Source: Dissulfuribacter thermophilus (GTDB lineage Bacteria > Desulfobacterota > Dissulfuribacteria > Dissulfuribacterales > Dissulfuribacteraceae). Taken from it: DNA of 64,000 bases. Below the pieces are notes generated by a model, which did no database searches, was not told the origin of the DNA, and saw only the letters and a program-made list of their open reading frames with translations. The stretch covers positions 1-64,000 of the forward strand of contig NZ_MAGO01000011.1 in NCBI RefSeq assembly GCF_001687335.1, written 5' to 3'. The translations under genes were made by a program, and so were the position numbers. Positions 14,507 to 30,274 of this stretch are shown piece by piece. Within the stretch, counting starts at the first letter, position 1. The number at the start of each line of letters is the position of its first letter.

Positions 14507-15613
14507 CTGATTTGATCTCCGATGCCGCAAGGCGTTGAGCACGTACTAATCCTGCTGAATCCTGTATACTGAATCCTCTGATTTGATCTCCGATGCCGCA
14601 AGGCGTTGAGCACGCGAAACTTGGATGGTGACAGCTATTCCCCACCCCTGACTGATTTGATCTCCGATGCCGCAAGGCGTTGAGCACTTGCTTCTGGTTC
14701 TCTCCAGAACAACCCTTACGCACTGATTTGATCTCCGATGCCGCAAGGCGTTGAGCACAAGCCAAAGAGGAATATAAAATCGCCACCTTTGGTAACTGAT
14801 TTGATCTCCGATGCCGCAAGGCGTTGAGCACCGGGCGTGGCTCCTATAGATAAGAACCACTATGTCTGATTTGATCTCCGATGCCGCAAGGCGTTGAGCA
14901 CTTGCATGATCTCCTAGACCGTAGCCTATCCCGTACAGTCTGATTTGATCTCCGATGCCGCAAGGCGTTGAGCACTCAGAGCAGATTGAGTCCGCCAGGA
15001 AAGATAGTGGCCTGATTTGATCTCCGATGCCGCAAGGCGTTGAGCACGTGATACCAAAAGTCATTATCCGTTCTTGCACTACTGATTTGATCGCCGATGC
15101 CGCAAGGCGTTGAGCACTTATCGCCCCAGAGGTCCACGAAGGTCCCGTCATCTGATTTGATCTCCGATGCCGCAAGGCGTTGAGCACGAAGTAGGGCCAG
15201 CGGCCACAACGTACACAAGAGCTGATTTGATCTCCGATGCCGCAAGGCGTTGAGCACGTTGATGGTGTTCCTTACACTAGCCTTAACAACGCCCTGATTT
15301 GATCTCCGATGCCGCAAGGCGTTGAGCACCTGATATAACAGGATGGACAGATGCTTCAACTGGTGCTGATTTGATCTCCGATGCCGCAAGGCGTTGAGCA
15401 CACTACAATTGACTACACTTTTTCTTGGGGGTATCCCTGATTTGATCTCCGATGCCGCAAGGCGTTGAGCACATTTCAAACAATGCTCTTACCAGAGCTG
15501 GTCTGCCTGATTTGATCTCCGATGCCGCAAGGCGTTGAGCACTTGGTTATGCGCTGGCGGTTTAATTAAAAGGAGGACTGATTTGATCTCCGATGCCGCA
15601 AGGCGTTGATCAC
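14507..15613 (+). CRISPR. CRISPR array, 16 repeats and 15 spacers
   Basis: The 36-base repeat starts CTGATTTGATCTCC and ends GTTGAGCAC. Repeats begin at 14507, 14578, 14652, 14723, 14796, 14866, 14940, 15012, 15082, 15152, 15222, 15294, 15366, 15437, 15507 and 15578; spacers are 34-38 bases. Repeat 9 (15082) has one change (TCTCC to TCGCC) and the last repeat has TTGATCAC instead of TTGAGCAC. The degenerate end is distal to cas2, so the leader is on the left and transcription runs along the plus strand. In that sense each repeat has the hairpin AUGCC-GCAA-GGCGU with a GNRA loop, followed by the likely 5' tag UUGAGCAC for Cas6 cleavage. No spacer origin can be told from the sequence alone. Confidence 0.98.
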
Positions 15614-15939
15614 GCGTTGACATCTACAATGTCATCCATCGTTACCTCACTGTTAAGGTCATTTTAATTTCCCCAGTTTAGGGGACTTAAAAATCCTCAC
15701 TTAGTTAGACAATAAATAATTATAGAGGCCTCTAAGGTGCACCCTAGACGCAATCTTGTACCTTATCCATGTTTCGAACTCAAAAAACTGCAAGATAAGA
15801 CACAGAACAGTATGAGGCCAATAGGGTCGTGCTCCCCTAAAAAACTATTTGGACGAAGCCGCCATTTGGAGGCAAAAAGGCCCGAAGTCCTGCAGGAGCT
15901 TTTAGGGTGTTTACATGGATGCCATTTGAATAAATCGAA
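15614..15939. other. Intergenic region between array end and convergent CARF gene
   Basis: I see no gene in this 326-base stretch. CCCC-AGTTTA-GGGG at 15671-15684 is a small hairpin near the array end and might help end the array transcript. The rest has no structure I recognise. Confidence 0.5.
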
Positions 15940-17076
15940 TCATTCAATTTCGATTAGTTGCGGCAAAAATCGTATTCCATATCTCTTTTCTCCTCGACGA
16001 CCAACTGACTCTATACGAAGACAGTGGGCAATGTGGCCAAAATAAGAATCAATCTTGGCATTTATCTTTGTTCGGTATTGTCTGAGATTCTCGATTTCGA
16101 TGCTTTGGATTCCACCCTCAGACAGGGATCTTCTGGGAAGAGTTGGAGAGTTTTGGGCTGCTGTTTCAAAAAATCCACAGATTAAGTGCCTGCATTCATC
16201 TTTTTCCACTTCAGAAAGAGTGGGAAAACAGTATTCACAGACGTCCTCCTCTTTTGAACACCTGCAATCTTTTCTGCGCATGGCAAAAAAGGCATATACT
16301 GCAATCAATGCCGGGCTCAAATCCACCTCTCTTCCGCAATAGGCCAGCTTTCCTCGTGAGATATCTACTCTGAGTTTTGCTGGTGCATCGCACACCACAG
16401 ACATAAGCAGGTCTTCCGGCCGTTCAGGGCCCTCAAGATCTTTTTCAGACAGCCATGATCGAACAGACACAAATGGCATTGGAACTAGCCAGATCTTGGC
16501 ATATTTTGAGTCCTTGAAATAATATTCGTCCTTGTCATCCTTTAGCCTTATCTTTGTATTTATGCGTGGTGGATAATAAAATTCTCTAGAGGACTCAAAT
16601 TCAGGGGAGACCAACACATGATAAATCCTGTCTTGAGGGCGTCCGTAAAATTGAGCAGATAGCGCGAGGCACGCGCTCATGGTCTTCCTGCCACCTGCTA
16701 TTAGAAAATATACTGCGGTATCAGGGTCTTTTGTAAGCTTCCAGGACAGTCTCATACAGGTTTCAACGAGTATGGCGTTGTGTTCAGGGCTTAGGATGTC
16801 GTCTAATTCGTTTCCCTGACTGTCTTTTAGGACATGGATATTTTCAGGAGGAAAATGCACCATTTCCCTGGAGATCTCATATTCATCTAAAAGCCTATAG
16901 AGAGCCCCTGTACCTGAGGCCAAAAGACCTGCATGAATGGCATCCTTTCCAGAACGTGTGGTTATCACGTGAATTTCATGTATGGGCCTCTCTTCCATTA
17001 TAAAGGCATAGAGAGCCTCTGTAATGACCTGTGGATTTAGCCCACTTACTGCCAATAGAATATTTTTAGTTGCCAT
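15940..17076 (-). CDS. CARF protein of the NE0113 family (TIGR02584; ring-nuclease-like), with C-terminal winged-helix-like domain
   Basis: The 378-residue protein opens ILLAVSGLNPQVITEALYA, then EIHVITT, ends of helices typical of the Cas_NE0113 family, and AGGRKTM (127-133), the ligand-loop motif. Some relatives degrade cyclic oligoadenylate and are called ring nucleases, switching off type III effectors. The region after about 235 looks like a winged-helix domain (LRVDISRGKLAYCGREVDLSP ... VGRRGEKRYGI), interrupted by a cysteine group C271-x-C273 ... C280-x2-C283 that could bind zinc. A DNA-binding or regulatory role is possible. It lies convergent to the CRISPR array and 244 bases before the next CARF gene in map order. 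Confidence 0.8.
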   Translation of the reverse strand: MATKNILLAVSGLNPQVITEALYAFIMEERPIHEIHVITTRSGKDAIHAGLLASGTGALYRLLDEYEISREMVHFPPENIHVLKDSQGNELDDILSPEHNAILVETCMRLSWKLTKDPDTAVYFLIAGGRKTMSACLALSAQFYGRPQDRIYHVLVSPEFESSREFYYPPRINTKIRLKDDKDEYYFKDSKYAKIWLVPMPFVSVRSWLSEKDLEGPERPEDLLMSVVCDAPAKLRVDISRGKLAYCGREVDLSPALIAVYAFFAMRRKDCRCSKEEDVCEYCFPTLSEVEKDECRHLICGFFETAAQNSPTLPRRSLSEGGIQSIEIENLRQYRTKINAKIDSYFGHIAHCLRIESVGRRGEKRYGIRFLPQLIEIE

Positions 17077-17156
17077 TTAAAAGCTCCAGTTAAGCCAAAT
17101 TATTGCACTACACTAGGGGTCAAAAATAATTTACCCCGAAAATACCCGTAATAACA

Positions 17157-17278
17157 GGTAGAAGGAAGAAGGTAGAAGGTAGAAGCAAGCCCTGCCTGTA
17201 CAATAGCCTGAGGCTGGAGGGCAAGGTTCAAAGTTCTCTTCCTTCAACTCAAAACTCAAAACTCAAAATTCAAAACTT
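17157..17278. repeat. Heptad tandem repeats in intergenic DNA
   Basis: Between two CARF genes, 17157-17190 consists of near-perfect 7-base units (GGTAGAA / GGAAGAA). At 17238-17278 there is the dispersed unit that starts TTCCTTCAACTCAAAACTC, also built on a 7-base period. Near-identical copies of the second unit are at about 31748-31787 and 50893-50932. The rest of 17077-17320 holds nothing recognisable. Confidence 0.75.
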
Positions 17279-17320
17279 TTATACGGGGGAGACGAATTCG
17301 TTCGTCATGAGAGTTTGGGG

Positions 17321-18445
17321 TTAAAGGTGTTCCCCAAGCTCATCAACTACCAACACTTCCCCCTCAAAATGACAGAAAAGCCTCTTGGCATCCTGGTCTG
17401 CCCATGCATCACATTCATGGGTGGACTCCAATACGGGTTTACCCATTAACTCCTTGAAATCAAGGCGCCTTGGATTGTAGCGCCCTCCCCTTTTTCGTTC
17501 TTCCATGAATTTTGAAAGGTCATCAATCCTCTCATTCAAAATGGCTGTTCGCTCTGGTCCAAGCCCCTTAATGCTTTGGGAGAATCTGTGTCCGAACCTC
17601 ACAAGGTTTGATGGTGGGCAAAGCACCTCCCTTCTGTAAATGGCCTTTTTACACTGGTTCCACAAAAGTTCTCCCCATGGGGACAGGGCAACTTCCCCAT
17701 CCATCTTGAGAATCATGGTCTCAGGAAGACTATTAGGTACCTGCTCCACAGCTAGGCCATTTGAGACCTTTCGGAAAAACTCTAGATGTTCCTGGATTAT
17801 TCCCTCACCATCCATCCTTACAGGTAGCCTAGGTATTCTGAGAAGTTCCTTGCCAGTCTGAAAGATGTATAGGGCTTCATCAGCGTAGAAAGATGCCACT
17901 GTCTGCAAGAATCCTTGGACTCCCTTAAACCCGCCTGTGAGATTAAAGATGATAGAATAGCCCTTGTCTCTATAGCCAGGCACAAGGTCGTGTACGAATC
18001 TGGCAAGTTCAGCGAGGGCGTATTGAAATGATATAAGCTCCACTGTCTGGAGGTCCTTTTGGACGTGCATCATAACTGCAAGACCTTTGGCTTCGAGCCA
18101 CTCCTTTAGGGCACTGCCTGTAGTCCTGCCAAGGAGGGTATCTGAGCAGAGAAGGCAGTGAACGTCCATTGATTTTTCCGGAATACTTCCCCCATAATAT
18201 TGTAGGAGAGAATTCAGTTCAGCGCTCATCTTAAGGAGCTCCTCATCCTTTGCCTGAGCCAACCGCTGTTTGGCCCTCTTGACCAGTGCCTTTAGGAGCC
18301 TTTTGTCTTCTTCATCGGTTATTGAATCAAAATCTTTTATATTTCCATGCTTTAACGTCACATATCTTTCCTCGGCAGACAAAGCGCAATTCGTCAAAAG
18401 ACTTGTCCCACACGTTGTAAGAATAAAACTCCTTTTATTCGTCAT
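17321..18445 (-). CDS. CARF protein of the APE2256 family with RelE-like C-terminus
   Basis: The 374-residue protein starts KRSFILTTCGTSLLTN, the first strand of the APE2256-type CARF domain, and has NLTGGFKG at 168-175, its conserved ligand loop. The last 90 residues, including HECDAWADQDAKRLFCHF and a final VVDELGEHL, resemble the compact RelE/HigB mRNA-interferase fold as in CARF-RelE (Cami1-like) proteins; this part is a fold guess. If right, cyclic oligoadenylate would trigger ribosome-dependent mRNA cleavage. I chose ATG at 18445 over a GTG at 18457 because GGGG lies at a reasonable distance. Same strand as the NE0113-type gene downstream, likely co-expressed. Confidence 0.75.
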   Translation of the reverse strand: MTNKRSFILTTCGTSLLTNCALSAEERYVTLKHGNIKDFDSITDEEDKRLLKALVKRAKQRLAQAKDEELLKMSAELNSLLQYYGGSIPEKSMDVHCLLCSDTLLGRTTGSALKEWLEAKGLAVMMHVQKDLQTVELISFQYALAELARFVHDLVPGYRDKGYSIIFNLTGGFKGVQGFLQTVASFYADEALYIFQTGKELLRIPRLPVRMDGEGIIQEHLEFFRKVSNGLAVEQVPNSLPETMILKMDGEVALSPWGELLWNQCKKAIYRREVLCPPSNLVRFGHRFSQSIKGLGPERTAILNERIDDLSKFMEERKRGGRYNPRRLDFKELMGKPVLESTHECDAWADQDAKRLFCHFEGEVLVVDELGEHL

Positions 18446-18742
18446 CTCTAATAACACCCCTTTAGATTTTCAAGCTTTGGGCCTGGCATTGCACCAGGCC
18501 TTTTACTAGGAGGGAAAAACTTTAAAGCGGAGTCTGGAAAAACCACCTGAGTGGATGTGACTATATTATCCACTGGGTGTAAGTTTTTAAGAAGCATAAA
18601 TGTTTCTGCCTCCTTAGAAGTTCGCGAGAAATTACACTTTTGGCCCTTTAGGGCCAAAGTTTTAGGGGATTGACAGGCCCTGTTCACATCCTCAGCATAG
18701 GAAGGATTACGCGAACTTAGCTCTCATTATAGGAGAGTGTCC
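18446..18742. other. Intergenic region with a perfect hairpin
   Basis: No credible gene. TTTGGCCC-TTTA-GGGCCAAA at 18639-18658 is a perfect 8-bp stem that can be extended by two pairs past a bulged T. It lies downstream of the unknown gene at 18743-19420 on its strand and may end its transcript, although no T run follows. Confidence 0.55.
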
Positions 18743-19783: not shown

Positions 19784-21769
19784 CTACTGTAACGAATGAC
19801 CCTTTTTTTCTCCAGAGAATCGGTGAGGACCTCGTCCTGACAATGATTTGGGCTCATTCATAACTCGTGACATGTCGTTTAATCTTCTGGTGAATCCGAT
19901 TGAGTCGAGGTAATCTAATATGTTGAATCGCACTCTGCCTATGGGGATTACCTTTGCAGTATCATCAAAGGTAAGTCTGCCATTGCTGCATATATGTTTC
20001 TCTACGTCTCTTTTTATCCTTTCGAGGTATTCTGTTGTTATAAACTCCTCTCTGTTTCCCTTTTTTGCGTGAAAAATCCTGACGACCTTGTCTGTACGGA
20101 TCAGAAACGATAAAACTCGCCGCACATCGGCCTCGTTAGGTGATCCTAATCTTTCCAAAATATTTGAAAGAGTAACGGGTTTGGGTTCCATCTTTTCCAG
20201 AAGGGAAACAATGTAATGGGAGATCTCCAGAAGATTTTTGGGTAGGTGTGGTCTAAATCCTGCTAGTCTGAGCCGGTCACTTCCCACTGGTTCCAATTTT
20301 TTGTCTTGTCTGAGGGTCTCAAGAAGCACATCTTTCAGTTGCCCGTCCAGTGTAGAAAATCTGTTTCTTATCTCCTCTAGAGAGATGCCCAGATGATCCG
20401 GGTGTGATTGGTGAAAATCTGATACCATGTCTATGGCCGTTTGAATTAGGGCCTCAAAATGCCTTCTTAAATAAAACCTTTCCCCTATACATAGGACCTT
20501 GTGTTTTTTTACGAGTTGCATCATAAGATCTTTTGTCTCCTGGAGGGAACGTCCGGAGGTTATTGCAATTTTTTCCAGCTCAATGGGAGTCGTGTAACTC
20601 TCTTCAAGAATAGTCAATACGATGTCAGGAGCTTCTCCCTGAGACAGAAGTCTCAGATAGTCCACTCTTTCTTGGTCTCTGGTCCGCCACTTGCGTCTTG
20701 ATACCTCCAATATAAGGCCTCCACCCAAGATGCGGACAGGAGAAAGGCTCGCTATTACCAGAGGGAAAAAAGAAAGGGCAGCAACTTCATCTTTAAACCT
20801 CAACTGACAAAATCCCCTGTCTCCTGGCATAAGGACCTCTCTATCCATTAGAACGAGCCTTGCCAACTTATGGGAAGAACCGCAGAATACGCGTATTGTG
20901 GAGTAATTCTTCAAGGGTTGTTTTACATAGTCTCTCAACCTTATTTCTGCGTTGAAAAACCTTCCCTGTGCGAGACGACCTGGCTGTCCGAGCACCATTC
21001 CTTTTTTTATCTGGGTGTGACTGATGCGTCTTAGATTGATTCCAGCCCGCATGCCAGCTTTAACAGAATCAGTCCACCTCCTGCCTGTTTGTATACACCG
21101 GACCTTGTCAAGTACATGGCAGGGATATATCTCTATTTCCGAATCAGTGCAGATCCTTCCAGAGGCTATAGAGCCAGTGACCACTGTTCCATAACCGGCT
21201 ACTGGGAAAACTCCGTCCACTGGCATCATGAACGGCCTGTCTTCATGACTGGGAGAATTGCCTGACAATATAGATTCCAAGGCCCTCGTGAGTTCAAGCC
21301 TGCCAGTTCCTGTGCTGGAGGAAAAATGTATAATGGGAGCATCATTTAAAAACGTGTCCTTTACAAGTCTTCTTGCCTCTTCCTCCGCCAGAGGCAGGAT
21401 TTCTTCATCTACCAAGTCGACCTTGGTTATCACAACGATCCCTTTTGAAACACCTATGGCTTCAATTACGGACAGGTGTTCCAGGGTCTGAGGCATTACG
21501 CCCTCGTCAGCCGCTATTACAAGGATCGCTGCCTCGATTCCCCACAGCCCCCGGACGGTGTTGTGAAGATAGGCCTGATGCCCTGGGACATCGACAAAGA
21601 AGATCGTACCTGAATCCAGGTCAAGGGTAGTATGCCCGACATTTATCGTAAGCCCTCTTCTTTTCTCTTCTGGCTCCCTATCAAGATCGACACCTGTAAG
21701 TGCCTTTACAAGAGAAGTCTTGCCGTGGTCAACATGACCCGCAACACCGACTATCAGAGACCTGGTCAT
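19784..21769 (-). CDS. selB: Selenocysteine-specific translation factor SelB
   Basis: The 661-residue GTPase has G1 GHVDHGKT (11-18), switch II DVPGH and the G4 motif TKVD, followed by EF-Tu-like domains II and III with the SelB-type order, and a C-terminal half of winged-helix repeats that bind the SECIS hairpin (segments near 475-640, such as [20 protein letters not shown]). SelB carries Sec-tRNA to a recoded UGA. The gene starts 24 bases downstream of a tRNA with a selenocysteine-tRNA shape and is on the same strand as the formate dehydrogenase gene, so fdh, tRNA and selB are probably one transcript. selA and selD are not in the window. The start ATG fits the family ([12 protein letters not shown]). 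Confidence 0.95.
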
Positions 21770-21792
21770 ATACCCTCCGTTTCAGGTACAAA

Positions 21793-21882
21793 AGGGGGCG
21801 AGGGGAGTCGAACCTCCTCCCTGTTTATTAGACAGGGCCAACGGGTTTGCAGCCCGTGGGGCACACCGGTACCATCGCCCCC
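21793..21882 (-). tRNA. tRNA-Sec-shaped tRNA with Cys anticodon GCA
   Basis: The minus strand folds as: acceptor stem of 8 bp (GGGGGCGA with TCGCCCCC), D arm GGTAC-CGGT-GTGCC with a 4-base loop, anticodon arm ACGGG-CTGCAAA-CCCGT, a long variable arm CCCTGT-CTAATAA-ACAGGG, and a T arm GGAGG-TTCGACT-CCCC that forms 4 bp with one bulged A. The discriminator is U and CCA is not encoded. Long acceptor, short D loop and long variable arm are selenocysteine-tRNA features; anticodon GCA (21848-21850) and U73 are cysteine-tRNA features. Published surveys (Mukai and co-workers) describe additional Cys tRNAs with an 8/4 fold in deltaproteobacteria. It lies 14 bases after the fdh stop and 23 bases before selB. 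Confidence 0.88.
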
Positions 21883-21896
21883 ATTTGGATTACATC

Positions 21897-24800
21897 CTAT
21901 GTCTTATCAGTCTCTGCCATGTAAATTTTGACTGCGCAGGCCTTGTATTCGGGAGTGAGAGAGATCTCGTCATATGCTGGGCTCGTAAGAAGATTGGTTA
22001 GCACATCTTGGAAATGAAATGCCATAAACACGGTTCCGGGCCTGCTTTTTGCGGTGAGCCTTGCCCTCACCGCTACCTTTCCACGTCTCGATTCCACCCA
22101 TGTCATCGCGCCATCCATTATACCGAAACGCCTTGCGTCCTCAGGATGAATCTCTACGTATTCCTCCGGAGAAATCGTATTGAGTACTCTTGAACGTCTG
22201 GTCATAGAGCCGTTATTGTAATGTGGAAGACGACGCCCTGTGATCAAGACAAGAGGATATTCACTGTCAGGTTGTTCCATGCTACCAGAGTGAAACAGTA
22301 CTGAAAAAAGCCCCTTGCCCCTTGTAAAGGCATTGCTGTGTAAAAGGGGCGTCCCTGGATGAGTGTCGTGGGGACATGGCCAGACAAGTCCATCCCCTTC
22401 GAGGCGCCAGTAATGAACACCGGCCATCACTGGTGTTACCTTAGCGATTTCCTCCATTATTTCTGCCGGATCTGTATAAGACATTGAATATCCCATTTTC
22501 TGAGCAAGAAGGCATACTATCTTCCAGTCTGGCAGGGCCTCACCCGGTGGCTCGACAGCCTTTCTGATCCTTTGAATCCTTCTTTCGGCATTTGTAAAGG
22601 TACCGTCTTTTTCGTAAAAACAGGCAGCAGGAAAGACAACGTGCGCCATTTTCATGGTCTCTGTAGGGAAAATATCCTGGACTATTACTAGCTCCATGCT
22701 GGCCAATGCGGTGCGGACAGCGGAGATATTTGCCTGGGTGTGCATGGGGTCGTCGCCGATACAGTAGAGCGCCTTAAACATCCCCTCTCTTGCAGCCTGA
22801 TACATTTCATGTTCGGTAAGTCCAGGGCCCTCGGGGACACTTGTACCCCACTCCTTGGCGAACTTTTCCCTCGTCTGTACATCATCCACGTCCTGGTAGC
22901 CGGGATATACCATGGGAAGCGCTCCCATATCGCACGCGCCCTGGACGTTATTCTGACCTCGGAGAGGCAGTATGCCAGCGCCTGGTCTACCGACATTGCC
23001 AGTGGCCAGGGCCAGATTGGCGAGCCCCATCACACTGTTTGTTCCATCACGGTGTTCCGTCACTCCAAGGCCATAAAGGATCATGCCTTTACGTGTCCCT
23101 GCATAGCACCTGGTGGCCTCTCTCAGCAGTTCAGCCGAAACACCGGTTATGGCATCCGTCATCTCAGGAGGAAACATCTTTACATGTTGCCTGACCTTTT
23201 CGAATCCTTCAGTGCGTTCTGCGATGAATTCGCTGTCTTCTAGGTGTTCGTCAAATATGACATGGAGCATGGAGTTGAAAAGCGAGACATTGGTGCCGGG
23301 CCTCAGCCTGAGCCAATAATCTGCAATTGAGACCAGATCAGTGCGCCTTGGATCTATGACTATGAGTCTTGTTCCATTGGCTACAGCCCTACGTATCATC
23401 ATCCCTACCACGGGATGGGCCTCGCTTGTATTAGATCCGCATACTATCAGGACTTCTGCCTCCATAATGTCCCTAAGAGAATTTGTGGCAGCACCACTCC
23501 CCAGGGCTATCCTGAGACCAGTCACAGACGGTGCATGGCAGACCCTGGCACAGTTGTCTATATTGTTTGTGCCAATTACCGCCCTGGCAAACTTCTGCGC
23601 CAGATAATTGACTTCATTTTCACACCTTGAGGATGAAACTACTCCAATTGCATTGGGCCCGTATTTTTGCCTGATTTCCATAAGGCGTTTAGCCGCAAAG
23701 TCTATTGCCTCTTCCCAAGAGACCTTTCTGAACTTATCCTCACGGCTTTCACGTATCATCGGCCTTGTCAGACGGTCTGGATGACGATAGAAATCAAAGC
23801 CGAACCTACCTTTTACGCACAGGTCACCATAATTTGGAGCATCCCTAGGATCGGATTTTATCTCCACAATTACACCACATTTTGAATGGATCTCTATCTT
23901 GCAGCCTGTTCCACAGTAAGTACATACGCTCTTTGTGACATCGGCTTCACCTGGTAGTAAGGGGACACCAAGATCCTTTTTCGTAAGGGCACCTGTGGGA
24001 CATGTATCGACACAGGCTCCGCACGAGACGCAGTTGGAGTTTATCACTATGGACTTATCCCTGACGCAGCCATCTTCCTCAATATAGTCCAGCCGCAGGG
24101 CATCTGATTCACAGGTCTGCTCACATCTGTGACATAACACACACTTGTTTGGATCTATCAAAATGGCTGGATGGGTCTTGTCCAGGGGATAATGAAGCCG
24201 TTTCAGGGCCTTTTTTACCCCAAGATCGTGATCGGCGCATAGTGTACGGAAGGTACATTTTGAAAGCCCCAGACAGCCACACTGAAGGCATCTCGCTGCC
24301 TCACGCCTGGCCATCTCCTCGGTAAGGCCGAGTTCAACCTCAAAAAAGTCACAAATGCGCCTTTCAGGCGGACGTTCAGGCATGGATTGGGCAAGGCTCA
24401 CTGTAAAACCATCATAGTTGTGCATATCGACGTCTTCAAAGCGCTTACCCTTGGTAAAATTAAATCTCGGCTCAGATATACCTGTCTTTTCCCCAACCAT
24501 GTACTCATGCATGGCCTCTGCAGCGCGCCTTCCTGCTGCAACCGCCTGAATAACAGTCCTTGGCCCGCTTGCACAGTCACCCCCGGCAAAAATCCCTGGG
24601 ATATTCGTAGCCATGGTGCTGGGATTGGACTTTATTGTCTTTTTGGGGCTCAATTTCAATTTTGCTTCCAGGTCACCAAAGGTGGAAATGGTGTCGTCAC
24701 CCTCCTGACCCAGTGCTGAGATCACTGCATCCCCTTCCCACACGAGCCTGGAGCCTGGCATGGGAACAGGGAAACGTCTGCCCCTCTCATCTGGCTCTCC

Positions 24801-26015
24801 AAGGACCGTCCTGGCCATTATGACCTTCACCTTACCATTGTCCATGCGCTCAATAGACAGAGGCGTGGCCATGAGGAATAGCTGTACCCCCTCCTTTTCT
24901 GCCTCTTCCACATCGCGCTGCTGGGCCGGCATCTCCACTCGGCTCCTCTCGTACACAACAGTAACATCCCTTACACCAAGACGCCTTGCTGAACGCGCGG
25001 CATCCACTGCCACATCTCCACCACCGATTACGAGGACCTTTGAACCGAGAGAGATTTGCCTGCCGAGATTGATCTTTTTCAAGAGCTCAAGGCCATCTAC
25101 GGCAAACTCTCCGCCCTTGATCGAAAGGGATCTTTGCTTCGAGAGCCCAACCGCAATAAATATAGAATCAAAACCCTGATCTTTGAGGTCACTTAAGGTA
25201 AAATCATCTCCCCATCGCCTTCCAACCTTTACATGCACCCCCAGATCCAAGATATTCTGTACCTCTTGTTCCACTACCTTGGTGGGGAGCTTGTAGTTTG
25301 GAATCCCGTATCTCAGGAGCCCACCGAGTTCCTTTTCTGCCTCGAAGATGGTTACGTCATGGCCGAGCTTTCTCAAAAAATAAGCGCAGCTAAGACCAGC
25401 GGGTCCACCACCAATAATGGCTGCACGTTTGCCTGTAGATTCCCCTGGCCGTTCTTTCAAACCACCTTTGGCCTGAACGTAATCTGCCACGAACCTCTTG
25501 AGATGATTTATGCTAATGGGCTCATCCAACAGGACACGCCTACACCTAGTCTCACAAAATCTCGGGCACACCCTCCCCACAGAGAGCGGCAGGGGATTCT
25601 TCTCCTTAATGAGCCTCAGTGCTGCCTCATATTCGCCTCTTGCGATGAGATTAATGTATCCCTGAACGTTGATGCCACCAGGACATGTGAGATTGCAGGG
25701 GGCCTTGCAGTCTCCATAGTGATGAGAAATCAGTTTTTCCAGATTACGTCTTCTTTGCTCCAAAATTTTAGGATCTTTGGTTACCACAACCATTCCATCT
25801 GTTGCCTCAGTGCGGCATGCCCTAACATATTCACCATCAATCTCCACAAGACACAGAAGACATGGCCTCTTGGAATCATCCTTACCAGGGAGGTGACACA
25901 GGTGCGGAATCTCGATCCCTGCATCTCTTGCCGCTTCAAGGACGCTCATGCCCTGTCGGGCAGTGACCTCTCTCCCATCTATCAAGAGGTTTATCACTTT
26001 ATCTGTAACATTCAT
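21897..26015 (-). CDS. Fused formate dehydrogenase / NAD(P)H-ferredoxin oxidoreductase-like protein
   Basis: The 1372-residue protein has, in order: a 2Fe-2S ferredoxin domain (1-80; cysteines around PHLCHLPG and RPCLLCLVEI), a HYGDCKAPCNLTCPGG cluster region, a GltD/NfnB-like FAD and NAD(P) domain (about 190-510; AAIIGGGPAGLSCA and LVIGGGDVAVDAARSA), two 4Fe-4S sites (about 640-690), and a molybdenum/tungsten-bis-MGD formate dehydrogenase catalytic domain (from about 710; CTYCGTGC). The residue that is Sec or Cys in this family is residue 826, codon TGC at 23538-23540, in the motif ARVCHAPSV. It should couple formate oxidation or CO2 reduction to NAD(P) and, with HdrA, to a third carrier. 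Its start overlaps the stop of the upstream gene (TAATG), with GGAGG in front. Confidence 0.92.
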   Translation of the reverse strand: MNVTDKVINLLIDGREVTARQGMSVLEAARDAGIEIPHLCHLPGKDDSKRPCLLCLVEIDGEYVRACRTEATDGMVVVTKDPKILEQRRRNLEKLISHHYGDCKAPCNLTCPGGINVQGYINLIARGEYEAALRLIKEKNPLPLSVGRVCPRFCETRCRRVLLDEPISINHLKRFVADYVQAKGGLKERPGESTGKRAAIIGGGPAGLSCAYFLRKLGHDVTIFEAEKELGGLLRYGIPNYKLPTKVVEQEVQNILDLGVHVKVGRRWGDDFTLSDLKDQGFDSIFIAVGLSKQRSLSIKGGEFAVDGLELLKKINLGRQISLGSKVLVIGGGDVAVDAARSARRLGVRDVTVVYERSRVEMPAQQRDVEEAEKEGVQLFLMATPLSIERMDNGKVKVIMARTVLGEPDERGRRFPVPMPGSRLVWEGDAVISALGQEGDDTISTFGDLEAKLKLSPKKTIKSNPSTMATNIPGIFAGGDCASGPRTVIQAVAAGRRAAEAMHEYMVGEKTGISEPRFNFTKGKRFEDVDMHNYDGFTVSLAQSMPERPPERRICDFFEVELGLTEEMARREAARCLQCGCLGLSKCTFRTLCADHDLGVKKALKRLHYPLDKTHPAILIDPNKCVLCHRCEQTCESDALRLDYIEEDGCVRDKSIVINSNCVSCGACVDTCPTGALTKKDLGVPLLPGEADVTKSVCTYCGTGCKIEIHSKCGVIVEIKSDPRDAPNYGDLCVKGRFGFDFYRHPDRLTRPMIRESREDKFRKVSWEEAIDFAAKRLMEIRQKYGPNAIGVVSSSRCENEVNYLAQKFARAVIGTNNIDNCARVCHAPSVTGLRIALGSGAATNSLRDIMEAEVLIVCGSNTSEAHPVVGMMIRRAVANGTRLIVIDPRRTDLVSIADYWLRLRPGTNVSLFNSMLHVIFDEHLEDSEFIAERTEGFEKVRQHVKMFPPEMTDAITGVSAELLREATRCYAGTRKGMILYGLGVTEHRDGTNSVMGLANLALATGNVGRPGAGILPLRGQNNVQGACDMGALPMVYPGYQDVDDVQTREKFAKEWGTSVPEGPGLTEHEMYQAAREGMFKALYCIGDDPMHTQANISAVRTALASMELVIVQDIFPTETMKMAHVVFPAACFYEKDGTFTNAERRIQRIRKAVEPPGEALPDWKIVCLLAQKMGYSMSYTDPAEIMEEIAKVTPVMAGVHYWRLEGDGLVWPCPHDTHPGTPLLHSNAFTRGKGLFSVLFHSGSMEQPDSEYPLVLITGRRLPHYNNGSMTRRSRVLNTISPEEYVEIHPEDARRFGIMDGAMTWVESRRGKVAVRARLTAKSRPGTVFMAFHFQDVLTNLLTSPAYDEISLTPEYKACAVKIYMAETDKT

Positions 26016-26629
26016 TATGTCCCTCCGGTTCCAAAATTGGCTGAAAGAGTCCTTTCACACCTGGCTCTCACTATAGAGGCTATATTTTTTCTGCTAAAAT
26101 CGCCGGACCTAAGGAGATCCTTGGCAGCATTTATGAGTCCTGTCCGCAACTTTACATCTCGAGCGGCGTTGGCTGCCTCGAGAAGCCGTTGCCTCAACCG
26201 CTCTTCCTTTACGCCTTCGGCCTGTCCAAGAGGACCTAGTTCGGCAATCCTCTTGGTAAATTCGGTGATTATGTTGACAAACCTGGGGCCTTCTGCTGCG
26301 GATGCCCACTCAATGAGAAGGCGCTCCTGCCTGACCCCTATACGTCTCATGGCCTCATGGGCCAGAGAACCGCTTATTAGGGCATGATAATTTCCTGATT
26401 GGTAATGACATTCCCCTGGATGACAGCCTCCAACAAAAACTCCATCAGCACCGACTGCCAATGCCTCCAGAGGGAAAGAGGGATCAAGTCTCCCTGTGCA
26501 CATAATGCGAATGACTCTGAGATTGGGTGGATACTGGTACCGGCCGACTCCGGCTGAGTCCGCAGCAGTATAGCAACACCAATTGCACAGAAAACCGAGA
26601 ATTCTGGGTTCCTGTCTCTGTTTATTCAT
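26015..26629 (-). CDS. MvhD-type iron-sulfur subunit (FlpD/MvhD family)
   Basis: The 204-residue protein contains FLCNWCCYTAADSAGVGRYQ, then RVIRIMCTGRLDP and GADGVFVGGCHPGECHY, the conserved 2Fe-2S core of methyl-viologen hydrogenase delta subunits. In methanogens and sulfate reducers this subunit passes electrons between a hydrogenase or formate dehydrogenase and HdrA. It overlaps hdrA by 8 bases upstream and the formate dehydrogenase gene by one base downstream, so the three products most likely form one complex. The C-terminal 80 residues are helical and longer than the bare family core. Confidence 0.92.
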   Translation of the reverse strand: MNKQRQEPRILGFLCNWCCYTAADSAGVGRYQYPPNLRVIRIMCTGRLDPSFPLEALAVGADGVFVGGCHPGECHYQSGNYHALISGSLAHEAMRRIGVRQERLLIEWASAAEGPRFVNIITEFTKRIAELGPLGQAEGVKEERLRQRLLEAANAARDVKLRTGLINAAKDLLRSGDFSRKNIASIVRARCERTLSANFGTGGT

Positions 26630-29600
26630 TTTCTATCTCCTTTCCTGAGAAAGCGTGGATCTGCGCCATGATTCCATGGTAAGTGAAACGGCCCATTTCT
26701 ATGGCCAACACAGGACAACGAGCGGCACATATGCCGCAACCTTTACAGGATGCGGCAAGGGTTGAGGCCTTTCGTCTCTTTCCTTCCTTGTAGATGCGAA
26801 TCGCGTTGTACGGACAAAACTGCTCGCATGCGCCACAGCCGATACATTTTTCCTTGTCAACCATGGAAACAATTGGTTCTGGTTCCACCTTTCCCCTCGC
26901 CAGAGGCAGACAGGCCCTTGCAGCCGCTGCCTGCGCCTGGGCAATACTTTCATCGATGGAGCGTGGAGAGTGTGCAAGGCCACATACATAGACCCCATCC
27001 ACTGCCAGATCCACAGGCCTCAACTTCACATGGGCCTCGAGGAAGAACCCGTCTTCTGTCGTAGGTACCTTGAGTATTTTTGAGATGTCCTGTACATCTT
27101 CCGGCACAATTCCGGTTGAGAGGACCAATAGATCAGCCTTCCACTCGATTTCCCTATTAAGGAGAGAGTCCCAGACCAAGACAGCAAGCGGACTCTTTTC
27201 ATCTTTTTGCAGAGATGCCCTTGGCGGATTTTCCAGGCTATAACGCTGGAATATCACTCCCTTGCGCCTCGCCTCACGATAGTCATCCTCTATAAATCCA
27301 TAGGCCCTCATGTCTCTGTACAGAATGACTACTTGAATATCCGGGGCCAGCTTCTTTATCCGGAGGGCGTTTTTCAGTGCCTGACCGCAACAGACACGGC
27401 TACAGTATGAAAGGTCATTCCCCCTGGAACCCACACACTGTATCATTACTATGTGCTTCGTTCCCGGAAGTAAGGGACGACGTGAGGCGAGTCTTTCCTC
27501 CAGTTCAATTTGCGTAATGACTCTGGATGACTCACCATAGAAAAATTTTCCCTTGGGTATATAGGGTCGGCCCCCGGTGGCAAGGACTATGACGCCGTGA
27601 CTGATCTCCTCGGTCTTGGAACCGATTGAGATTGTGGAACGGAAATCCCCCACATAACCCGAGACTGAAGACAATACAGCCCCTGTACAGACCCTAATCT
27701 TAGGATGGGATTTGACCTTTTCTATGAGCATTGAAACCTCCTGTCTGGGGTCATTTCCCAGCCTGTCTGCTGTGAGAGCAAGGGCCCTGCCTCCAAGCCT
27801 GTGTTCCCGTTCCACTAGGGTGCAGTAATAGCCCTGTTCTGCTATGGTGAGGGCTGCCGTGAGACCAGCCACTCCGCCGCCGATTACCAAGGCGGATTTG
27901 ACCACCGGAAGTTCCTGCTCTGGTAGGGGAGCGAGATGTTGGGCCTTTGCCACGGCCATCCTAACGAGATCTTTTGCCTTTTCCGTGGCGGCTTGCGGTT
28001 CGTTCATGTGGACCCAGGAACACTGGTCTCTTATATTGGCCATCTCAAAAAGAGACCGGTTAAGCCCAGCGGCCCTCAGTGTCGCCTGAAAGAGAGGTTC
28101 GTGGGTTCTTGGGGTACATGCCGCCACTACTACCCTATTGAGATTGTATTCTCTTATTATTTCGGTAATGTGTCGTTGGGTATCCTGGGAACAGGTGTAC
28201 AGATTGTCAGTGGCATACACTACTCCGGGAAGTGTACGGGCGTATTCCTGGACTTTCTTGACATCTACCACGCCTCCTATATTGATCCCACAGCTACACA
28301 CAAACACCCCTATCCGCGGTTCTTCATTGGAAACGTCGCGTTCTTCAGGATAGGTGATTGATAGTGTCTCTGTATCCCTAGCTTCCTTGAGCAGACCTGC
28401 ACAGAGTGAGGCGGCTCCGCTCGCCTGGGTTACACTGTCGGGTATGTCTTTCGGGCCCTGGAATGCCCCTGCTACGAATACACCCTCTCTATCGGAGCTG
28501 AGTGGCGACCAGATACCTGTGTAGGCAAAATTGTAGGAATTGAGAGATATTCCTGTGGATTCTGAGAGTTTTTCAGCATCCTCGACAGCCTCCAGTCCAT
28601 TAGTCAGGACAACCATGTCGTAGAATTCATGAAAATTCCTTCCATTTTCTGCCACATAGGTGAGCAGAAGCTGTCCATCTATTTGTTCAACCCTCGCAGG
28701 ACGGGCATAGACAATCCTCAGGTCGTGTTCTCTGATGGCACGCTCTCTAGCTGCATCAAACCCCTTACCGTGGGTACGTACATCCATATAAAAGAGGGTG
28801 ATTTGCACATCTGGGTCATGTTCCTTGGCCATGGTCGCCTCTTTTATGGCGTACATACAGCATACAGAGGAACAGTAATTGTTGCCGCAACGTTCATCTC
28901 GAGAACCGATACACTGGAGAAACGCAATACGTTTTGGATGCCGTCCGTCTGAAATTCGAACGATCTCTCCATTGGTGGGGCCACTTGCGCACATTAGACG
29001 CTCGAATTCAAAGGCAGTCAAAACATCTTCATAGAGACCCCAGCCGAATTTTTCTAAGAACTCTTCCTTTATGCGGCCAAAGCCAGGAGCGACAATAGCA
29101 GCTCCCACATTGAGTTCTCGTATCCCTTCGGATTGATCAAAGTCTATTGCCTTTTTCTGGCATAGAGAGGCACATAGCCCACAGGAGTCATAATTGACGC
29201 GTAAACAGGCCTTTGCATCTATATAGTAACTTGTTGGTACTGCCTGGGGATAATCTATGTGCGCGCAGCGGGCCAGTTCCAAACGTTCATTGTATTGGTC
29301 TGCTATGATTCTAGGACAGTAAAGTGAACACTGCCCGCATCCGGTACAGGCGGTTTCGTCTATGAATCTCGGCTTTACAAGTACCTTTGCAGTAAAAGAA
29401 CCTGGTTTGCCATTTAGGGAAATAAGTTCGGCATTCGTGATGATTTCAATGTTTGGATTTCGTCCTGCCTCCACCAGTTTTGGCGCCAGGATACAAAGGG
29501 AACAGTCGTTGGTGGGGAACGTCTTATCGAGTCTTGCCATGGCACCCCCTATGGATGCCGTTTTTTCGAGAAGATAGACCTTGTACCCCAATTCTGTAAG

Positions 29601-29690
29601 GTCAAGGGATGCCTGCACCCCTGCAACACCGCCTCCAATAACCAGGACGCTCCCGGTTACAGGAGTATTAGAACTATTATTGCATTTCAT
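26622..29690 (-). CDS. hdrA: HdrA-like flavoprotein with duplicated FAD module
   Basis: The 1022-residue protein has a first FAD module (VLVIGGGVAGVQASLDL at the N-terminus, NDCSLCILAPKLVE, then CTGCGQCSLYCP and CGLCASLCQ clusters), a second one (ALVIGGGVAGLTAALTI at about 605) and a C-terminal ferredoxin part with CIGCGACEQFCP and CKGCGICAARCP. HdrA is the flavin-based electron-bifurcating subunit of heterodisulfide reductase complexes. No hdrB or hdrC is next to it; instead MvhD-type and formate dehydrogenase genes follow. I chose ATG at 29690 because GGGAGGTG precedes it; an earlier ATG at 29723 has no such site. Direction and partners of bifurcation are inferred. Confidence 0.93.
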   Translation of the reverse strand: MKCNNSSNTPVTGSVLVIGGGVAGVQASLDLTELGYKVYLLEKTASIGGAMARLDKTFPTNDCSLCILAPKLVEAGRNPNIEIITNAELISLNGKPGSFTAKVLVKPRFIDETACTGCGQCSLYCPRIIADQYNERLELARCAHIDYPQAVPTSYYIDAKACLRVNYDSCGLCASLCQKKAIDFDQSEGIRELNVGAAIVAPGFGRIKEEFLEKFGWGLYEDVLTAFEFERLMCASGPTNGEIVRISDGRHPKRIAFLQCIGSRDERCGNNYCSSVCCMYAIKEATMAKEHDPDVQITLFYMDVRTHGKGFDAARERAIREHDLRIVYARPARVEQIDGQLLLTYVAENGRNFHEFYDMVVLTNGLEAVEDAEKLSESTGISLNSYNFAYTGIWSPLSSDREGVFVAGAFQGPKDIPDSVTQASGAASLCAGLLKEARDTETLSITYPEERDVSNEEPRIGVFVCSCGINIGGVVDVKKVQEYARTLPGVVYATDNLYTCSQDTQRHITEIIREYNLNRVVVAACTPRTHEPLFQATLRAAGLNRSLFEMANIRDQCSWVHMNEPQAATEKAKDLVRMAVAKAQHLAPLPEQELPVVKSALVIGGGVAGLTAALTIAEQGYYCTLVEREHRLGGRALALTADRLGNDPRQEVSMLIEKVKSHPKIRVCTGAVLSSVSGYVGDFRSTISIGSKTEEISHGVIVLATGGRPYIPKGKFFYGESSRVITQIELEERLASRRPLLPGTKHIVMIQCVGSRGNDLSYCSRVCCGQALKNALRIKKLAPDIQVVILYRDMRAYGFIEDDYREARRKGVIFQRYSLENPPRASLQKDEKSPLAVLVWDSLLNREIEWKADLLVLSTGIVPEDVQDISKILKVPTTEDGFFLEAHVKLRPVDLAVDGVYVCGLAHSPRSIDESIAQAQAAAARACLPLARGKVEPEPIVSMVDKEKCIGCGACEQFCPYNAIRIYKEGKRRKASTLAASCKGCGICAARCPVLAIEMGRFTYHGIMAQIHAFSGKEIENE

Positions 29691-30274
29691 ATGACACCTC
29701 CCATGGATGCAGAAGACCTGCATCTGTTAGCATGGCGATTCAACCGGCCTCGCCACGCCTGAGAGGTTTTATGTCAGGATTTGATTACAGGTGGGAAAAC
29801 GTGGAAGGACGGCTGAAAACGCCAATAGGTTGTATAGTGGTCTGAACCAGACCTGTTGAATTTTGAGCTAAGGCTCATTCAACAGGCTGATAATACTTAT
29901 AAACCATCTGTCTTTACTCCTTTTAAGGGATTACAGCGACTATAAGATTTCGCTTTTTATAGAAAGAGGAACGTATCATAAAATGATATACTGTCAACTT
30001 TCTTTTAACTCCGCATAACTGCTGCCTCAAAGTCAGACATTTCACAATTTATTAAAAGACGGCGTGAGCTTAAATCTAGATGAGAGCTAACTTTCTGATA
30101 TTACAATTGAACATGATGCAACGTCATTTAGGAACCAGTACTATCGTTAAAAAACAGCTTTTAAAAATGGAGTCAATCTATAGTTAGTTAGACTGTATTT
30201 AACCCTTTAAAATTAGAGAAAAACAAGGCATACTACCCTATCATTGGAAATTAAAACTTAGGGAGGAAAATATT
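29691..30274. promoter_or_regulatory. Divergent intergenic region with a long hairpin
   Basis: This stretch separates hdrA (minus) from the nitroreductase gene (plus) and must hold both promoters. At 29852-29886 CCTGTTGAA pairs with TTCAACAGG, and inside it TGAGC pairs with GCTCA around TAAG, leaving a 3-base bulge. No T run follows on either strand, so an operator or 5' leader structure is more likely than a terminator. GGGAGG at 30261-30266 is the nitroreductase ribosome site. Nothing else is recognisable. Confidence 0.55.

Follow-up and report, generated by a model that had tools for sequence, protein, structure and literature searches.

Genomic locus

The window, a stretch of 64,000 nucleotides, carries on its minus strand, in this order, genes for an HdrA-like protein, FlpD, a formate dehydrogenase, a tRNA and a protein of the SelB family (Table 1). 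The spacing given in an earlier, sequence-only reading of this DNA is exact: 14 bases (21883–21896) separate the formate dehydrogenase stop codon from the tRNA, and 23 bases (21770–21792) separate the tRNA from the ATG of the selB-family gene. That reading had named the latter simply selB; a selB-family gene is indeed present, but it is not the one for the cell's ordinary SelB, which is located elsewhere in the genome. The tRNA gene and its neighbor are here called selC* and selB*. CRISPR-array-like repeats, followed by Cas_NE0113 and Cas_APE2256, lie downstream of selB* (14546–18457), and the repeats show up as repeated peptides in the list of open reading frames.

Table 1. Features of the selC*/selB* locus in the window
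Feature	Position	Strand	Evidence or remark
selB*, SelB-family elongation factor	19784..21769	minus	TIGR00475, 287 bits
selC*-type tRNA-Cys	21793..21882	minus	ARAGORN, Rfam, folding, alignment
Cys-type formate dehydrogenase, fused NAD(P)-binding and Fe-S domains	21897..26015	minus	neighbor, probably not client
SECIS place of Sec-type relatives	23509..23525	minus	loop letters GGTCT kept, stem 2/6 pairs
TGC codon at formate dehydrogenase Sec position (CARV-C-HAPS)	23538..23540	minus	
FlpD (MvhD-type) subunit, fdh operon	26015..26629	minus	
HdrA-like FAD/Fe-S protein, fdh operon	26622..29723	minus	

A tRNA of selenocysteine shape with cysteine identity marks

ARAGORN calls the gene a tRNA-Cys (gca), and the covariance-model search that the sequence-only reading had proposed returns tRNA-Sec as the best Rfam model (RF01852; 58.8 bits, E 3.3e-10, above the cut-off). 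The fold (z = -3.2) has an 8-bp acceptor stem, a 5-bp D stem with a 4-base loop and a 6-bp variable arm. The T arm pairs slightly otherwise in the single-sequence fold; its 4-bp stem with one bulged A is based on an alignment of 29 relatives, across which the bulged A is invariant. In this alignment 98.7% of cells are paired under the 8/4 structure and 13 pairs have changed on both sides, a fit matched by none of 500 shuffles. The long variable arm covaries in five of its six pairs and is thus under constraint. The Sec-shaped fold described from the letters (8-bp acceptor stem, 4-bp T stem with bulged A, 4-base D loop, long variable arm) is thus recovered by ARAGORN, Rfam, folding and alignment together, as are the GCA anticodon and the discriminator U, the last base being U73.

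The 8/4 arms and long variable arm set this tRNA apart from ordinary tRNA-Cys, which has 7/5 arms and a short variable loop, and the canonical tRNA-Sec genes of this data set have G73 as their last base. U73 and GCA are identity marks of cysteine (PMC7609411) and point to cysteinyl-tRNA synthetase (CysRS), and an 8-bp acceptor stem is disfavored by EF-Tu and favored by SelB (PMC7609411).

The source genome (2.52 Mb, 99.97% complete) holds a complete ordinary Sec system. The search for a second selC and for selA and selD, also proposed earlier, yielded a separate, normal selC with anticodon UCA and G73, a SelA, and a SelD with an in-frame TGA, itself Sec-containing; canonical SelB is encoded on a contig other than that of selB*. 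An ordinary 7/5 tRNA-Cys (contig C2) and two CysRS are also present. The window tRNA is thus an extra one. The sequence-only reading had held that a separate UCA selC, combined with charging by CysRS only and delivery by EF-Tu, would remove the idea of recoding; the selC half of this does exist.

One frame of 786 residues in the same genome (L022:583-2940, contig C8) fuses a CysK-like cysteine synthase to a full CysRS, in addition to the ordinary CysRS. Frames of similar length are found in most class members, whether or not they have selC*, and we rejected the fusion as a dedicated selC* synthetase because it is nearly class-wide irrespective of selC*.

SelB* is a diverged paralogue of canonical SelB

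The window SelB* is a paralogue of canonical SelB with an intact reading frame; it matches TIGR00475 over its full length, against a curated cut-off of 242 bits, and retains domains 1–3 and the final winged-helix fold. In a quick tree, a branch with support 100 separates the 27 tRNA-adjacent SelB* proteins from 97 canonical SelBs. Within the SelB* side, proteins linked to UCA-type tRNAs are nested among those linked to GCA-type tRNAs, so the GCA form is the older one in this sample.

Three sequence marks follow this division. The switch II motif VPGH-E-[KR] is present in 97/97 canonical SelBs, whereas its E occurs in only 8 of the 27 SelB* proteins and the place after it is most often D (15/27); the window protein reads VPGHQA. 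A D-R pair has its R in 96 of 97 canonical SelBs, but G, Q or H in 13/27 SelB*, including all four of the class (D185-G186 in the window protein). In the last winged helix, canonical S-R-K is replaced by G-R-T or similar with the Arg kept, and the Lys of this SECIS-reading helix, found in 95% of canonical SelBs, is present in 0/27 SelB*; the window protein has G-R-V, with Arg612 kept and the canonical Lys absent. Neither these marks nor the tree grouping of canonical SelB thus apply to it. Counted back from the protein end, the R-K of the helix corresponds to Arg606 and Lys607 of Moorella SelB, the former of which presumably contacts SECIS. SelB* thus retains an RNA-reading domain that is altered in detail, and a protein lacking the canonical Lys may be unable to read ordinary SECIS elements. 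The altered G-R-x motif is common to UCA- and GCA-linked members, which would fit the reading of a single kind of hairpin by both.

The tRNA and SelB* occur and decay together

SelB* was found in four of 46 genomes of the class (the source genome, G025, G031 and G002), and the intact selC*-type tRNA occurs in the same four, in a phylum-sampled tRNA scan whose class part held five matching genomes and 13 further members or fewer. The fifth, G026 (L184:1-1900), has mismatches in the acceptor stem of its tRNA and only a remnant of selB* downstream (11 protein letters, not shown). Decay of both genes is as expected of a pair. A Cys-type formate dehydrogenase frame is still open beside these remains.

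It is very improbable that the window pair is likewise a functionless remnant in decay. G026 is an example of decay within the class, and the window tRNA gene does not encode CCA, which is encoded in both selC and the ordinary tRNA-Cys gene of the cell; however, all 30 pairs of the tRNA are intact in the four genomes at a mean identity of 93%, while the SelB* proteins of the class relatives are merely 39–59% identical to that of the window, whose frame is itself unbroken.

A tRNA model built from the four class members matches 37 of 395 genomes of the phylum. Most matches have a selB-like gene downstream and an anticodon GCA or UCA, and U73 is nearly always present. Five matches from one family (f28; L204, L205, L208, L209 and L212, in G099, G062, G134, G189 and G162) are tRNA-Sec-like genes with 8/5 arms, GCA and U73 and no selB nearby; they may be something else, and are possibly Sec-shaped Cys tRNAs employed without SelB. 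Also of note, a CysRS-like gene in G260 (L200:5194-6504; 436 aa, 42% to ordinary CysRS) directly follows selB*, whose partner tRNA has a UCA anticodon and A1-U72, an arrangement that matches the described cysS*.

The neighbors of the pair vary. Across the phylum they are often Cys-rich redox enzymes (HdrA, FlpD, formate dehydrogenase, a double-cubane protein, nickel hydrogenase), and in G031 and G002 a double-cubane protein and its activase, not formate dehydrogenase, are found next to the pair or close by. The assignment of G031, putatively Dissulfurimicrobium hydrothermale Sh68, suggests that the source belongs to the class of this cultured sulfur disproportionator, itself a carrier of the pair.

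Formate dehydrogenase, a neighbor but probably no client

Most genomes of the class, including the source genome, encode a Sec-type formate dehydrogenase (TGA), and seven encode a Cys-type enzyme. All 24 Sec-type genes examined have a SECIS hairpin that starts 12 bases after the TGA, with 6/6 pairs and the loop GGUCU, and the stems of the source genome, G004 and G005 show compensating changes. The whole hairpin is found in none of the seven Cys-type genes. Five of these seven orthologs are in genomes without an intact pair: G006, G036, G038 and G039, which have no SelB*, and G026, where it has decayed. The entire HdrA-FlpD-FDH(Cys) operon is present in G006. With the SECIS missing after the TGC and an intact pair missing from the genomes of most orthologs, we judged the TGC codon an unlikely target, and the neighboring Cys-type formate dehydrogenase is probably not a client of selC*/selB*. 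The link between the tRNA and this enzyme implied by the sequence-only reading therefore stands as adjacency, whereas a functional tie is weakened by the G006 operon and by the other surroundings of the pair in G031 and G002.

These observations bear directly on the proposal, also made earlier, of a tRNA-Sec that reads UGC/UGU. Much as in Aeromonas salmonicida, a tRNA-Sec with a changed anticodon would be charged by SerRS, converted by SelA and delivered by SelB* to place Sec at the formate dehydrogenase TGC. The retained and covarying variable arm, the full Sec machinery of the genome and the position of the TGC, exactly at the Sec site, would all fit, but U73 stands in place of G73, a normal UCA selC is present, the TGC has no SECIS, five of seven orthologous TGC-type genes have no intact pair, and the R after D of canonical SelB is lost in the SelB* of the class. 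We regard this reading as decidedly improbable.

The source genome also has a Sec-type enzyme (L278:614-4762, contig C4; TGA and SECIS) about 60% identical in its catalytic part to the Cys-type enzyme of the window; the two are possibly isoenzymes switched by selenium supply.

Search for other clients

No credible in-frame UGA was found in the genes neighboring the pair, including those beside UCA-type tRNAs; each hit turned out to lie antisense or out of frame, or to be noise. The double-cubane protein was rejected as a UGA client, as no listed copy contains a stop. Folding after each Cys codon of the neighbor genes gave no hairpin in common, and a hairpin after CNWCC of FlpD was discarded as a SelB* mark since it occurs in G006, which lacks the pair, as well.

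Two further explanations can be weighed against this outcome. SelB* could bring Cys-tRNA to ordinary UGC/UGU codons marked by a SelB*-specific hairpin, for example in Cys-rich Fe-S redox enzymes, which would be a dedicated cysteine channel and not recoding. In favor of this, GCA pairs normally with UGC/UGU, the tree places GCA before UCA, the helix that reads SECIS is altered in SelB*, and Cys-rich redox enzymes are frequent neighbors; against it, the Cys codons of these neighbors share no hairpin, the formate dehydrogenase operon persists where the pair is absent, and a similar tRNA of Desulfotomaculum nigrificans is reported, in a review, to act at UGA. We consider a sense-codon channel unlikely, though the strongest of the alternatives. 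Both the altered helix and the older GCA form would be compatible with another hairpin and with sense-codon reading, and a slightly less likely, more specific form of the idea is an orthogonal, position-specific route by which SelB* and the GCA tRNA would supply Cys to hairpin-marked Cys codons, the UGA reading of the UCA form being a later derivative.

Less probable again is a role outside ordinary decoding, in which SelB* with Cys-tRNA would guard or store Cys-tRNA, or would occupy hairpins as a regulator. The archaeal SelB-like protein MM1309 is described as binding and protecting Cys-tRNACys (PMC4329189), and the neighboring genes held no client codon, but SelB* keeps domains 1–3 and the final winged helix with its Arg, and the similar tRNA mentioned above is reported to decode UGA.

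A probable second, cysteine-carrying delivery system

The explanation that we favor, as somewhat probable, is that SelB* delivers the Cys-tRNA of the window pair, with UGA codons as the most likely targets. The selC* tRNA would be charged with cysteine by a cysteinyl-tRNA synthetase, its 8-bp acceptor stem would keep it off EF-Tu, and it would be carried by its own SelB relative, which would place cysteine at chosen codons flagged by an mRNA hairpin. UGA would be the most likely target codon, and GCA would read it in the manner reported for the tRNA of D. nigrificans; the outcome would be a selenium-free backup for selenoproteins. Of the two possibilities left by the sequence-only reading, the Cys tRNA delivered by SelB is therefore the favored one, with the modification that its carrier is most likely the dedicated SelB* encoded right after the tRNA.

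This explanation is supported by the cysteine marks U73 and GCA, where canonical tRNA-Sec genes have G73; by the separate existence of an ordinary tRNA-Cys and a UCA selC; by the shared occurrence of SelB* and intact tRNA in four class genomes and their joint decay in G026; and by the single SelB* branch, whose altered G-R-x motif is found in UCA- and GCA-type members alike. The reported decoding of UGA as Cys by the D. nigrificans tRNA (as reviewed in PMC11415595) and the low-selenium proposal (PMC9437257) also argue for it. Several points speak against a UGA target. No UGA client was seen among the neighboring genes, including those next to UCA-type tRNAs. SelB* is missing the Lys of the helix that reads SECIS. 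In the tree GCA predates UCA, which would be odd had UGA always been the target. The canonical Sec system would also be a competitor at these codons.

The pair represents a decoding system that is known but poorly understood, found here in what are probably sulfur-disproportionating bacteria. Relative to the reviews, our analysis adds the lineage, the SelB* marks, the precedence of the GCA form over the UCA form and the probable independence of the pair from formate dehydrogenase. Sequence marks now separate SelB* from SelB, the change of anticodon is given a direction, and an adjacent formate dehydrogenase should not be assumed to be the client of the pair. Its presence in a group with a cultured member, putative Dissulfurimicrobium hydrothermale, makes the role of the GCA form testable in its own host.

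Comparison with known systems

The closest match is the selC* tRNA-Cys/selB* system of Mukai et al. (2017, Nucleic Acids Res. 45:2776), as summarized in PMC7609411. The sequence-only reading had pointed to such extra 8/4 Cys tRNAs, and every testable selC*/selB* feature is found here: 8/4 arms with the bulged A51a, U73, GCA, an extra SelB downstream, a deltaproteobacterial host and a normal Sec system alongside. The summary reports selC* from Syntrophobacterales and Desulfobacterales, whereas the window putatively belongs to the Dissulfurimicrobium class, and it has neither a cysS* next to selB* nor a UCA anticodon. The CysRS*/SelC* system has been proposed as a low-selenium route (PMC9437257).

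A tRNA-Cys(GCA) from D. nigrificans is reported to insert Cys at Sec UGA codons by way of SelB (Vargas-Rodriguez et al. 2018, as cited in PMC11415595). The window tRNA is likewise a Sec-shaped Cys tRNA with GCA, and delivery by a SelB protein rather than EF-Tu is predicted for it; however, D. nigrificans belongs to another phylum and the review names SelB, whereas the window pair, known from sequence alone, has its own diverged SelB*. The tRNA-Sec(GCA) of Aeromonas salmonicida, which is reported to translate UGC codons for Cys into Sec (Mukai et al. 2016, as cited in PMC11415595), resembles the window in its Sec-shaped GCA tRNA and in the Cys codon of a formate dehydrogenase, but the present case differs from that type, as reviewed, in having U73 and not G73, a separate UCA selC and no SECIS behind the TGC. 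MM1309, proposed as a guardian or alternative factor, is, like the predicted SelB*, a SelB relative that handles Cys-tRNACys; it is archaeal and has three domains, and its abstract describes no linked Sec-shaped tRNA (PMC4329189), whereas SelB* is encoded directly after one.
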